Position numbers and translations under genes: made by a program. A DNA stretch of 64,000 bases from Sulfitobacter sp. F26169L (GTDB taxonomy: Bacteria; Pseudomonadota; Alphaproteobacteria; Rhodobacterales; Rhodobacteraceae), in contig NZ_JAPMLP010000003.1 in the NCBI RefSeq assembly GCF_026410285.1, forward strand, positions 248,001 through 312,000, written 5' to 3'. Positions 58,377 through 61,094 of this stretch are shown piece after piece (positions within the stretch are counted from its first letter, which is position 1; every line of letters begins with the position of its first letter). The notes under the pieces are model-generated. The model made no database searches and had not been told where the DNA came from. It was given only the letters and a program-made list of their open reading frames with translations.

Positions 58377-59453
58377 TTAGGCCATACCGCCCTTAATCAA
58401 TCCTTCAGCAATGCGGGCGTAGGCCTGCGCCATTGCACCGTCACCGGCGGCTACCGGCGTGCCGCCATCCCCCGCCAGACGCGTTTCAAGATCAATCGGC
58501 AATGTTCCCAACAGCGGCACACCCATCTTATCAGCTTCCGCAGCAACACCGCCCTGCCCGAATATCTGATGCTCTGATCCGCAATCAGGGCAGACAAACA
58601 TCGACATGTTCTCGATCAGCCCCAACACAGGTGTTTTCAGCGTCGCAAACATATCCAGCGCCTTGCGCGCGTCAATCAGGGCTACATCCTGCGGCGTACT
58701 GACGACAATCGCGCCGGAAAGCTCCGACTTTGTACACAGAGTCAGTTGCACGTCCCCCGTCCCCGGCGGCAAATCAACCAGCAGGACATCCAGCTCGCCC
58801 CACTCCACCTGTCCCAACATCTGCTGAAGCGCCCCCATCAGCATTGGGCCACGCCAGATCGTGGCTTTACCCTCCTCCATCATGAAGCCGATAGACATCA
58901 AAGTGACGCCATGGGCGTGTAGCGGAATGATGGTTTTGCCATCAGGACTGGCAGGGCGTTTGTTAACGCCCATCATACGGGGGATGCTTGGGCCGTAGAT
59001 GTCGGCATCCAACAGCCCCACCTTGCGGCCCTGTCTGGCCAGCGCAACAGCTAGATTGGTGCTGATCGTGGATTTCCCAACGCCCCCTTTACCCGATCCG
59101 ATAGCAACGATGCGCTGAACCCCGCTCGGTTTGGACGGGCCTTCTTGCGGCTTGGGGTGCCCGCCGATTTTCAGGCTGGGTGGCGGTGTTGACGGCTTTT
59201 GCGCCGGACCATGCGCCGTAAGAGCGACCGACACCTGAGTAACGCCAGCAAGTTCGGACACGACCTTTTCCGCAGCATCGCGCAGCGGACCCATCGAGCG
59301 GGCGGTATCAGGATCAGGGGCCTCGATGACAAAACGCACCACGCCGCCCTCAACTGTAAGTGCGCGCAGGAAATCATGTGCCACAAGGCTGCGCCCGTCC
59401 GGCAGGTTTATCCGCTCTAGGGCCGCTGTTACATCTGCTTTGGTGACGGACAT
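58377..59453 (-). CDS. Mrp/ApbC family iron-sulfur carrier ATPase
   Basis: A 358-residue cytosolic P-loop protein that carries Fe-S clusters to target enzymes. It has an N-terminal DUF59-type domain (about 1-90), the deviant Walker A GSGKGGVGKSTIS near residue 118 and CPDCGSEH near 285, whose two Cys bind the cluster in the dimer. The start at 59453 follows GGAGTAGCAAG; an ATG 24 codons upstream is less likely. Confidence 0.94.
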   Translation of the reverse strand: MSVTKADVTAALERINLPDGRSLVAHDFLRALTVEGGVVRFVIEAPDPDTARSMGPLRDAAEKVVSELAGVTQVSVALTAHGPAQKPSTPPPSLKIGGHPKPQEGPSKPSGVQRIVAIGSGKGGVGKSTISTNLAVALARQGRKVGLLDADIYGPSIPRMMGVNKRPASPDGKTIIPLHAHGVTLMSIGFMMEEGKATIWRGPMLMGALQQMLGQVEWGELDVLLVDLPPGTGDVQLTLCTKSELSGAIVVSTPQDVALIDARKALDMFATLKTPVLGLIENMSMFVCPDCGSEHQIFGQGGVAAEADKMGVPLLGTLPIDLETRLAGDGGTPVAAGDGAMAQAYARIAEGLIKGGMA

Positions 59454-59580
59454 CTTGCTACTCCATTTGCTTGATCCTGACATGGCAGATTGAGAAAAAT
59501 CTGCAAGACCACTAACCTGCGTCATCGCAGCGCTGCGTACCGTGTTGGATACTTATTACACGGAATCAACGCTTGCGCTT

Positions 59581-59627
59581 GCTGCATAGCAGCATTGCAA
59601 ATTCAATCATTGTGCAATTGCAGCATT
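59581..59627. repeat. GCAGCATT boxes upstream of anti-SD array 1
   Basis: GCAGCATT occurs at 59589-59596 (within the dyad TGCTGC-ATA-GCAGCA) and 59620-59627, just before the first hairpin array. The octamer recurs before and within the DUF1127 gene (59879 and 60016). These look like sites of one regulator or a dispersed motif. Confidence 0.4.
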
Positions 59628-59644
59628 TAGGATTATTAAACGTA

Positions 59645-59763
59645 TATGAAAACAATCCTCCCGATGGTTTTCTTGATTATCTAAGGGGCCTCCATCCTCC
59701 TCCCGGTGGTCCCCTTTCTTTCGGCGGCGACATCCTCCTCCCTGATGTCGTCGCCTTTTTTTT
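59645..59763 (+). ncRNA. anti-SD hairpin array 1 (cuckoo/CcsR-like RNA)
   Basis: Three hairpins in tandem expose CCTCCC in their loops, at 59657, 59696 and 59734 (spacing 39 and 38). Hairpin 1 is GAAAAC/GTTTTC, hairpin 2 AAGGGG/CCCCTT with CCTCCTCCC, and hairpin 3 a 12-bp stem (59723-59755, one G-U pair) with CCTCCTCCC, followed by eight T residues, i.e. a strong intrinsic terminator. CCUCCUCCC is complementary to the Shine-Dalgarno sequence. The layout matches the two-hairpin cuckoo RNAs of alphaproteobacteria, for example CcsR1-4 of Rhodobacter sphaeroides. It lies about 200 bases upstream of a DUF1127 gene. The 5' end is not fixed. Confidence 0.75.
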
Positions 59764-59863
59764 CAACATGCATATGATACCATCTAATAGCGTCCGGATT
59801 TCGGACCATAAAATTTTTTTATTTTTCTAACAACAAGTTAACTTAATGCCGCACTTGCACTGG

Positions 59864-59886
59864 GCGCATAGCTGCAATGCAGCATT
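59864..59886. repeat. GCAGCATT element upstream of the DUF1127 promoter
   Basis: GCGCATAGCTGCAATGCAGC-ATT ends at 59886, five bases before the -35-like CTTGAA. It resembles the sequence at 59581-59600 (GCTGCATAGCAGCATTGCAA), suggesting that array 1 and the DUF1127 gene share a regulator. Confidence 0.4.
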
Positions 59887-59890
59887 GAGC

Positions 59891-59919
59891 CTTGAAGCTT
59901 TATCTGCTGAGCTTAGATA
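59891..59919 (+). promoter_or_regulatory. RpoH-like promoter of the DUF1127 gene
   Basis: CTTGAA, a 17-base spacer and TAGATA lie 45 bases before the ATG. CTTGAA is the -35 element of heat-shock sigma factors; the R. sphaeroides DUF1127/CcsR locus is known to be driven by RpoHI/RpoHII. The -10 is only moderately similar. Confidence 0.45.
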
Positions 59920-59964
59920 CTCATCACAACGAGACACAGTAACGATGATGAAGAAGAGAATAAA

Positions 59965-60180
59965 ATGACATACTTCGATACAACCGCATCCGCCGCATCA
60001 CAGCCTAGCCGCATTGCAGCATTTTTTGACGGGATCGCCCTCAAAATGCGTCAGCGCAAAATCTATCGCCAAACGTACAACGAGCTGTGCACGCTGACAT
60101 CACGCGACCTGGCCGATCTGGGTCTTTGCCGCGCAGATTTTCGCCGCCTGTCAATCGAGGCGTCCGAGCAAGTGAAGTAA
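59965..60180 (+). CDS. DUF1127 protein, CcaF1-like
   Basis: A 71-residue basic protein whose C-terminal half has the DUF1127 signature LTSRDLADLGLCRADF (about 45-60) following a helix RQKIYRQTYNEL (RQRKIYRQTYNEL). The start at 59965 follows GAAGAAGAG. In R. sphaeroides the 71-residue DUF1127 protein CcaF1, encoded next to CcsR1-4, binds RNA and affects maturation of those sRNAs. Identical length and the same hairpin neighbourhood support an equivalent role here, but this is inference. Confidence 0.85.
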   Translation: MTYFDTTASAASQPSRIAAFFDGIALKMRQRKIYRQTYNELCTLTSRDLADLGLCRADFRRLSIEASEQVK

Positions 60181-60564
60181 TTACGGAATTCCCCGCTGTC
60201 TGGTCCTCCCACTGGGCGGCGGGTGAATATGCAACGCGGCAGTGTCTCGCCTCCCCGATGACCCCGCGCTGTACAAGATGTATGGTTCCGTTCCTCCCGA
60301 TTGGAAATATGCACTTGTCAGAACGGCGGCCCCACCTCCCTGTGGGCCGCCGTTTATGATTCTTGGACTGCCCTCAAGGAGGTCACCGGGCTGGCACTCC
60401 AGCACCGCGCAAATCTTTGCTAACGTCTCGAAACGGACGCCCTTTACTTTACCCGACTTGAGCAGGCTCAGATTTTGCTCGGTAATCCCGATAGCATCCG
60501 CCAGTTCCTTCCCCTTCATCTTGCGCCGCGCCAGCATGACGTCGAGCCTTACAATAATCTCCAT
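60181..60564 (-). CDS. Cro/C1-type (YozG-like) transcriptional regulator with extended tail
   Basis: A 127-residue protein. Residues 1-68 form the YozG-like helix-turn-helix: MEIIVRLDVMLARRKMKGK, then ADAIGITEQNLSLLKSGKV and ETLAKICAVLECQPGDLLE. GAGGAATTTATCTG precedes the ATG. Relatives usually end shortly after the DLLE stretch; here the frame stays open for about 60 Gly/Ser-rich residues that lie antisense to the hairpin array and stop one base from the DUF1127 stop. It is coupled to the upstream DUF2975 gene (TGATG overlap), a known pairing. Confidence 0.8.
   Translation of the reverse strand: MEIIVRLDVMLARRKMKGKELADAIGITEQNLSLLKSGKVKGVRFETLAKICAVLECQPGDLLEGSPRIINGGPQGGGAAVLTSAYFQSGGTEPYILYSAGSSGRRDTAALHIHPPPSGRTRQRGIP
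60191..60355 (+). ncRNA. anti-SD hairpin array 2 (cuckoo/CcsR-like RNA)
   Basis: Four CCTCCC motifs lie at 60205, 60250, 60293 and 60335, spaced 45, 43 and 42 bases, each between inverted arms: CCCGC/GCGGG, CGCGG/CCGCG, TTCC/GGAA and the long last stem AACGGCGGC-CCCAC/GTGGG-CCGCCGTT (13 bp plus one bulge, loop CTCCCT), which is terminator-like but followed only by a short T run. The array starts 10 bases after the DUF1127 stop, so it is probably cotranscribed and processed, as in R. sphaeroides. It lies entirely antisense to the 3' end of the regulator gene 60181-60564. Confidence 0.7.
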
Positions 60565-61094
60565 CAGATAAATTCCTCGTTTTCGCGGGCAACGCGGATT
60601 GCCTCGCGCATCACCAATCCGAGGAACAAAAAACAAAACCGGAAAATACTACGCCTACATTACCGCTGTCATACCAAAATCGCAGGGGCAAAGGCCCCCC
60701 CGGCATTATGCGAGGACCGTATCATCGGGTTGACCGCCCCCGCAAACAACGCAGTTGTACTCGACAGGAATGCCAGCAGCCCCATCCAGGGCAAGCGATG
60801 CGCAATGCGCGGATCAAACATCACCCCTCTAAGCAACAGGATCAACGTGGAAAACACCACCAGATAACTCAGCGTGCCAAAAAAAATCGGCACGACCCAA
60901 ACTGTGAAAAAGACAACACGCGTTCGCACCGCAATGTGCGCATCAGGGTCAACCCAGCGATCATTGCGCGTCCAACGTTCCGGATCGAGAGACGACAATT
61001 CCAAGTTCCACGCCAGCGCTTCGTAGGGATAGTAAATTATCATCGGCAGCATCACGATCATCGCGAACAAAGACAGAGAGCGGATGCGCGTCAT
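60564..61094 (-). pseudogene. DUF2975 membrane protein gene with two homopolymer frameshifts
   Basis: From the ATG at 61094 the frame reads 141 residues with three membrane helices (about 5-25, 60-90, 102-125) in DUF2975 style, then stops early at 60669. If the run of seven C at 60695-60701 had six and the run of six A at 60628-60633 had seven, the frame would continue as RFWYDSGNVGVVFSGFVF, then LFLGLVMREAIRVARENEEF and end in a TGA that overlaps the regulator ATG (176 residues, normal for the family). The C-terminal REAIRVARENEE is typical DUF2975. It is either a true pseudogene, slippage-dependent, or a sequencing artefact. Confidence 0.7.

Follow-up and report, generated by a model that had tools for sequence, protein, structure and literature searches.

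The mrp-DUF1127 locus and its hairpins

The DNA analysed here, a 64,000-nucleotide stretch of a Sulfitobacter contig (the window), contains a small DUF1127 gene that lies between two arrays of short hairpins on the same strand, with mrp/apbC as its divergent neighbour upstream (Table 1). The encoded protein has the 71 residues of CcaF1, and the domain proposed for it in the sequence-only reading is confirmed by a match to PF06568. On the far side, a convergent gene of the HTH_26 (Cro/C1-type) family lies on the reverse strand; its reading frame (60181-60636), with a putative extension, crosses the antisense of the downstream array as far as 60181. The same genome has three other DUF1127 genes; no array was found in the stretches examined around them, one of which (L068) holds a lone CCTCCC.

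Both arrays are built around CCTCCC, which starts on the forward strand at 59657, 59699 and 59737 upstream of the gene, with spacings of 42 and 38 nt, and at 60205, 60250, 60293 and 60335 downstream of it, with spacings of 45, 43 and 42 nt. The sequence-only reading of seven motifs in two regularly spaced groups is borne out, apart from its first spacing of 39, which fits only if counting begins from CCTCCTCCC at 59696. Seven copies on one strand within 684 nt have a Poisson probability of ∼2e-10 (lambda 0.14, uncorrected for scanning); across the whole window the motif is not enriched, with 19 copies observed on both strands and 26.4 expected. When each hairpin is folded singly, the motif lies in the loop in all seven, as had been claimed, and entirely so in five; in the other two, hairpins 1 and 6, a single C is base-paired. 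The complete CCTCCTCCC is present in just two of the seven loops, those of hairpins 2 and 3.

Hairpin 1 by itself is not unusual, 23 of 200 shuffled sequences being equally stable, and when the entire upstream region (59640-59770) is folded the lowest-energy structure exchanges it for another pairing, although the centroid structure retains it. Folding of 60215-60360 likewise rearranges hairpin 5. The eight-T terminator that had been noticed at the end of one array is indeed present directly 3' of hairpin 3, at 59756-59763; a terminator scan with a loop limit of 8 missed it.

Table 1. Features of the locus, in window coordinates
Feature	Positions	Strand	Remarks
mrp/apbC, divergent neighbour	58377..59525	-	Domain match and synteny; marks the conserved site
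P1 box 1, TGC[AG]-N6-GCAT	59574..59587	+	Spans roughly -71 to -58 relative to the inferred start
P1 VtlR/LsrB near-match, TGCATAGCAGCATTG	59583..59597	+	2 of 15 positions mismatched to the published motif
P1 inferred core	59610..59638	+	TTGTGC 59610-59615, 17 nt, TTATTA 59633-59638; start near 59645, inferred from spacing
P1 second box, TGCAATTGCAGCAT	59613..59626	+	Overlaps the inferred -35
Inferred stand-alone sRNA, ∼119 nt	59645..59763	+	Full-length ar14 match; NfeR1 is 123 nt
Hairpin 1, upstream array	59648..59672	+	CCUCCC 59657-59662; z -1.30
Hairpin 2, upstream array	59683..59716	+	Loop CCUCCUCCC; z -1.92
Hairpin 3, upstream array	59723..59763	+	Loop CCUCCUCCC, then eight T; unit terminator; z -7.55
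P2 boxes	59856..59879	+	TGCA-N6-GCAT 59856-59869; VtlR-like CGCATAGCTGCAATG 59865-59879, 3 mismatches; upstream of the DUF1127 gene
CcaF1-like DUF1127 gene, 71 aa	59965..60180	+	PF06568, E 2.2e-9
Hairpin 4, downstream array	60190..60226	+	Loop CCUCCC; z -2.90
Hairpin 5, downstream array	60230..60273	+	Loop CCUCCC; z -2.15
Hairpin 6, downstream array	60276..60315	+	CCUCCC largely in the loop; z -2.35
Hairpin 7, end of downstream array	60317..60360	+	Short T run after; z -5.67

Conservation, RNA family and distribution

A search with the DUF1127 protein gave matches in all 46 genomes of the genus, that of the window included, and in 1 of 32 other genomes. In the best 30 of these 46, which form the genus set, at least two motifs lie upstream of the DUF1127 gene in 30/30 loci and at least two downstream in 29/30 (L030 has one); true hairpins number two to four per upstream array among the genus loci listed. 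The stems of the last two upstream hairpins are maintained by compensatory change: in the alignment of the 30 loci 93.3% of cells are paired, compared with 82.6% after shuffling, 13 of the 22 pairs are altered on both sides, and the 74 cells changed on both sides, compared with 21 in shuffles, were reached in none of 500 shuffles. The helix of hairpin 2, the penultimate one, is altered on both sides at 10 of its 11 pairs around a CCTCCTCCC loop that is invariant in all 30 rows, and hairpin 3 has 99.4% of its cells paired, with 3 of 11 pairs so altered. The last downstream hairpin, hairpin 7, behaves similarly (98.2% of cells paired, 10 of 13 pairs covarying). Variable stems kept by compensatory change are a mark of the cuckoo RNAs, and the upstream array has them. 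A covariance model made from the upstream alignment recovers the upstream array at 88.1 bits, by construction since the window sequence is part of the model, and also picks up the downstream one (22.7 bits, E 1e-4). Run genome-wide, with 150 of 1184 candidates scored, it found no second locus, and it missed the downstream array too.

Within the window's own group, nine loci (L005-L013), the distance from the promoter box to the first motif is 72-74 nt, and in the other 21 genus loci it is 105-112 nt; this suggests that only in that group does the 5' hairpin carry an anti-Shine-Dalgarno (anti-SD) loop.

Rfam covariance models were run on the window with gathering scores and on 59400-60500 with an E-value threshold. 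No family reaches its gathering score anywhere in the window. Over 59638-59759 the upstream array matches ar14 (RF02344) along the full length of the model, with 48.3 bits (E 1.5e-7; gathering score 58.8), and it matches CcsR1 (RF02791) with 38.1 bits (E 1.7e-7; gathering score 65.3). The downstream array, in which none of the four loops has the nine-mer, matches weakly (ar14, E 0.086; CcsR1, 14.4 bits, E 1.7). The earlier assignment to cuckoo/CcsR-type hairpins is thus upheld for the upstream array, at scores below gathering; the downstream array combines weak scores with strong covariation in its last hairpin. Of the outcomes that the sequence-only reading named as refuting it, two are contradicted: there are covariance matches, and the stems show compensatory changes among relatives. 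Two to four adjacent hairpins are part of the published definition of cuckoo RNAs, and a single family has been proposed for RNAs that have two, three or four of them (PMC3927594, section 2.7). The upstream array fits this description, having three hairpins, two of them with the nine-mer CCUCCUCCC in the loop and the first with CCUCCC alone. We therefore classify it as cuckoo-type and, because the Rfam gathering scores are not reached, not as a curated Rfam member. Neither the type of RNA nor its hairpin counts are new, since ar14 (NfeR1, 123 nt; PMC10746234) has been published in just this form, about 120 nt long with three hairpins and anti-SD loops.

The upstream array is restricted to one lineage. 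Named relatives were represented by 80 loci, the best among at least 398 candidates, and in 80/80 at least two motifs lie downstream of the DUF1127 gene; some of these loci come from the same genomes as genus loci, so that not all rows are independent. Judged, like these counts, from motif positions in unfolded sequence, a tandem upstream array is present in Sulfitobacter and in four metagenome-assembled genomes labelled Roseobacter or Rhodobacteraceae (L087, L103, L105, L106), and was not seen in Shimia, Yoonia, Ruegeria, Leisingera, Tateyamaria or the other loci among the 80. An Mrp protein tree of 90 rows, some from the same genomes, was built by a quick method with SH-aLRT support only; 20 of the 110 loci (30 + 80) were left off for want of a usable Mrp match; of these, 19 are named loci that lack a tandem upstream array, and the other, L025, carries one. 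On this tree the presence (49 rows) or absence (41 rows) of the array requires two changes, compared with a mean of 30 after shuffling. All 49 bearers fall within a single supported Sulfitobacter-like clade of 50 rows, whose sole row without the array is S. sabulilitoris (L130). The two-unit arrangement is a variant specific to this lineage. Where the array is present, 439-612 nt (median 520) separate mrp from the DUF1127 gene; loci that lack it have 219-1478 nt there (median 284). These sizes fit a single insertion of ∼240 nt at this site.

Class-wide, the ar14 model gave matches in 7 of 142 genomes, with up to 22 candidates scored per genome, and none exceeded the cut-off; the nine-mer pattern occurred in 4 of 385, one being a relative (G014) at this same locus and one (G135) also having control matches. 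Neither search gave a recognisably rhizobial locus. At DUF1127 loci of other families (seven genomes, five with a match, 23 loci) there was no regular array, one locus (L192) having five scattered downstream motifs. The tandem CCTCCC pattern is itself unspecific, the reversed control also being frequent among the matches listed across 48 genomes.

A second DUF1127 match followed within a few hundred nucleotides by tandem CCTCCC, seen in unfolded sequence, occurs in at least five genomes of the genus (G009:C1:886709-886790, G045:C28:329177-329294, G003:C16:1385159-1385201, G008:C5:122206-122291 and G039:C1:2282653-2282695). These genomes perhaps carry a second locus of the DUF1127-array kind.

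Promoters and candidate regulators

The upstream array is preceded by a promoter-like region, P1, and the DUF1127 gene by another, P2, and the two share conserved boxes at conserved spacing. The box TGC[AG]N6GCAT is found in 18/30 genus P1 regions (shuffled mean 1.3), 30/30 genus P2 (0.6) and 78/80 named P2 (2.9), and the looser ATG[CT]N7GCAT in 27/30 genus P1 (1.2). TTGTGC-N4-GCAGCA occurs in 28/30 P1 regions and can be seen in the alignment for the remaining two (L013, L028); the broader TGC-N3/4-GCAGCA is counted in 30/30, a figure to which box 1 can also contribute. GCAT lies 26-27 nt from TTGTGC, the inferred -35 element, in 30/30 P1 regions, and a TTG lies 26 nt from GCAT in 30/30 genus P2. 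A strict sigma-70 consensus scan found no promoter at P1, where the -10 is poor. With this promoter-like region before it and the eight-T terminator behind it, the upstream array would form a separate transcription unit, as the sequence-only reading had proposed.

Aligned on GCAT, P1 resembles the P2 of other genera (29 P1 and 57 other-genus P2 regions): both have GCtGCATaGCAGCATTG followed by aTTGTGCA...GCAGCA. It is Sulfitobacter's own P2 that has drifted from this pattern (30 P2 regions; L006 has no P1 anchor in the comparison). From this promoter similarity and from its position, rather than from any homology of the stems, we infer that the upstream unit originated within the Sulfitobacter lineage, most likely when the ancestral DUF1127 promoter and hairpins were duplicated into the gap between mrp and the DUF1127 gene.

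Which regulator would act here? PhaR, whose operator is CTGCN3GCAG, initially appeared a strong candidate at P1, and would make the sRNA responsive to polyhydroxybutyrate status. The site reported for R. sphaeroides is CTGCNNNGCAG; the operator pattern is present in 24/30 P1 regions (shuffled mean 0.4) and in all 30 phasin promoters examined; and SMc02051, a small S. meliloti gene that lies downstream of NfeR1, is reported from proteomics to be PhaR-repressed and has a predicted site, its binding entry being given as 'NE'. The middle three bases speak against it. All 35 phasin operators have RNY at these positions, but just 1 of the 24 P1 sites does, and RNY is the published consensus in S. 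meliloti and B. diazoefficiens, that of R. sphaeroides being given as NNN; the second P1 box, moreover, is spaced TGC-N4-GCA. Control of P1 by PhaR is thus unlikely. P2 is another matter: the window P2 contains an RNY site, CTGCAATGCAG, 3 of the 6 such sites in genus P2 having RNY, and PhaR acting at P2 in the window's subclade is a candidate reading. All 30 phasin promoters examined (L154-L183) share a conserved word, TGCTGC-RNY-GCAG, which is located 100-152 nt before the phasin match and is likely to be the PhaR operator of the genus; the phasin and PhaR genes are here presumed from inspection of their translations.

The boxes point instead to a LysR-type regulator of the LsrB/VtlR kind. 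The published VtlR motif is CAATGCAGCCATGCA, which reversed reads TGCATGGCTGCATTG; the window P1 has TGCATAGCAGCATTG. Up to three mismatches to this motif are found in 30/30 P1 regions (24 of them within two), 18/30 genus P2 and 63/80 named P2, where shuffling gives means of 1.3, 0.4 and 1.9. The motif is not wholly specific, since three mismatches or fewer are also found in 10 of the 30 phasin promoters, which contain a similar word and so make a demanding control. LsrB is reported to activate NfeR1 by binding its promoter between -72 and -57, and Brucella VtlR to control an AbcR sRNA and three DUF1127 genes. Because both promoters carry an LsrB/VtlR-type box, we propose that an LsrB-like LysR regulator probably activates both P1 and P2.

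The genome encodes an LsrB-like protein. The best match of the LysR protein at L226:590-1486 is PDB 9HH1, at 234 bits, the next chain scoring 94 bits; 9HH1 is the LsrB structure from an A. tumefaciens study. No LsrB model is among the 25 NCBIfam matches listed for the protein. A match to the box pattern begins 14 nt after the stop codon of its gene and is followed by the sRNA SorX (49.6 bits; gathering score 46.6). The pattern has 13 matches in the genome and 3 in the reversed control, and its occurrence beside this gene could possibly be due to chance. The order on contig C24 (L226:590-1518 and 1610-1663) is LsrB-like gene, VtlR-like box and SorX, ahead of a frame that we take, from its translation, to be purL-like. 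In A. tumefaciens, similarly, vtlR is reported to be followed by sRNA genes. One recent paper describes LsrB as unique to Rhizobiales, and the trxB-lsrB neighbourhood is absent here, trxB lying elsewhere with no LysR neighbour in the stretch examined; for these two reasons we call the protein only LsrB-like. The LsrB reading also has to accommodate a strict box in only 18/30 P1 regions, a VtlR near-match in only 18/30 genus P2, and the reported control of the R. sphaeroides CcaF1-CcsR operon by RpoHI/RpoHII (PMC10253847). Elsewhere in the same genome, another DUF1127 gene has a LysR-type box match (G000:C28:48235-48252) some 110 nt ahead of its protein match.

Proposed mechanism and relation to known systems

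We suggest that the locus comprises two transcription units. In the first, P1, three hairpins and a terminator would yield an sRNA of about 119 nt, of cuckoo/ar14 type; the second would be the DUF1127-plus-array operon found family-wide, of the CcaF1-CcsR type. The sRNA would block translation through pairing of its CCUCCC loops with Shine-Dalgarno regions, a mode of action proposed from the loop sequence and from published work on NfeR1, which supports pairing with the translation-initiation regions of mRNAs. The DUF1127 protein may assist in processing the downstream array. For this scheme as a whole, at its core a stand-alone anti-SD sRNA that is controlled by an LsrB-like regulator and pairs in this way, we estimate a probability of about 0.6; the transcription, regulator and targets of the sRNA are deduced from the features described above. 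More tentatively, and with the odds somewhat against so broad a scheme, the Sulfitobacter lineage may have copied the promoter of an ancient DUF1127-cuckoo operon to give a free NfeR1-like sRNA, and an LsrB/VtlR-like regulator, of a kind described as confined to Rhizobiales, may run a Rhodobacterales circuit that takes in two anti-SD arrays, DUF1127 genes and SorX.

The position of the upstream array, on the same strand as the DUF1127 gene and ahead of it, would also suit an untranslated leader or attenuator of that gene with no free sRNA, and a leader attenuator of a DUF1127 gene has been reported in S. meliloti. Such a leader is improbable given that the array ends in a terminator-like hairpin with eight T, that its stems are maintained by compensatory change, that a conserved box of its own precedes the DUF1127 gene at all 30 genus loci, and that other genera have the gene and the promoter type with no upstream array. 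That the array is instead a relic of duplication, a stack of terminator-like hairpins with no function of its own, would agree with its lineage-specific origin, its absence from one named species (S. sabulilitoris) and the weakness of hairpin 1. Retention in 49 of 50 clade rows with compensatory changes, together with the invariant penultimate loop CCTCCTCCC, makes this the least likely of the readings considered.

In a different use of the same RNAs, the arrays would mainly titrate ribosomal or initiation components, a role that the sequence-only reading had raised for ribosomes, or soak up other regulators, rather than pair with individual mRNAs. The repeated, near-identical loops do resemble the anti-SD of 16S rRNA, and the number of upstream hairpins varies from two to four among the genus loci listed. 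By our reasoning, however, a CCUCC loop is of the same sense as the anti-SD of 16S rRNA and would compete with it for the Shine-Dalgarno sequences of mRNAs, not bind ribosomes through the motif, and the published NfeR1 work favours mRNA pairing; we regard titration as unlikely.

Among known systems the upstream unit is closest to ar14/NfeR1 of S. meliloti (RF02344), which shares its three hairpins, anti-SD loops, intrinsic terminator and length of about 120 nt, has a LysR-type box at a similar distance from the start (a start that is inferred here), and likewise lies upstream of a small gene. The window array differs in scoring 48.3 bits where the gathering score is 58.8, in having only CCTCCC in hairpin 1, in its setting between mrp and a DUF1127-array operon, and in a candidate regulator gene unlinked to trxB. 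NfeR1 (1667613-1667492) is placed in the gap between tig and SMc02051, upstream of and on the same strand as SMc02051, ahead of which a PhaR site is predicted at 1667000-1666980. This parallel is drawn from the published coordinates, since our class-wide searches gave no recognisably rhizobial locus. One paper gives SMc02051 as DUF1137, for which our guess is a slip for DUF1127. If SMc02051 is a DUF1127 gene, Rhodobacterales are not alone in having an NfeR1-type unit in front of such a gene, whether the arrangement was inherited from a common ancestor or evolved independently, and the layout described here is less new than it looks.

The second unit resembles CcsR1-4/CcaF1 of R. sphaeroides (RF02791), in which a 71-residue DUF1127 gene is followed by a hairpin array; both this operon and the name CIN1 for the association with DUF1127 are known (PMC10253847). 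The Sulfitobacter locus is of the CIN1 type, having a small DUF1127 gene with an array directly 3' of it, but its downstream array consists of four hairpins that all lack the complete nine-base loop, and scores weakly with CcsR1 (14.4 bits), and there is the additional unit upstream. The architecture does therefore differ from that of R. sphaeroides, as the sequence-only reading stated, in the presence of an upstream unit beside the DUF1127-array operon; the three-hairpin form itself is that published for ar14/NfeR1.

With the LsrB/VtlR circuit of Rhizobiales, which takes in AbcR, NfeR1 and DUF1127 genes, the locus has in common a similar promoter box, the proposed combination of sRNA and DUF1127 targets, and an LsrB-like protein encoded in the genome; it differs in belonging to Rhodobacterales, in having no LysR gene beside trxB, and in the sRNA that follows the regulator gene, which matches SorX and not AbcR. 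We conclude that the locus is real and conserved and belongs to a known kind, here in a two-unit variant specific to one lineage, with an LsrB/VtlR-like switch that is plausible and open to test. It offers a natural example, located on a phylogeny, in which an anti-SD RNA operon acquired a further unit whose promoter is related to its own, so that deletions in a single strain can separate the role of the free sRNA from that of the protein-linked array. Should the regulator be correctly identified, a redox- and nitrogen-linked circuit of Rhizobiales extends to marine Rhodobacterales, where the control of CcsR-type RNAs becomes open to experiment.
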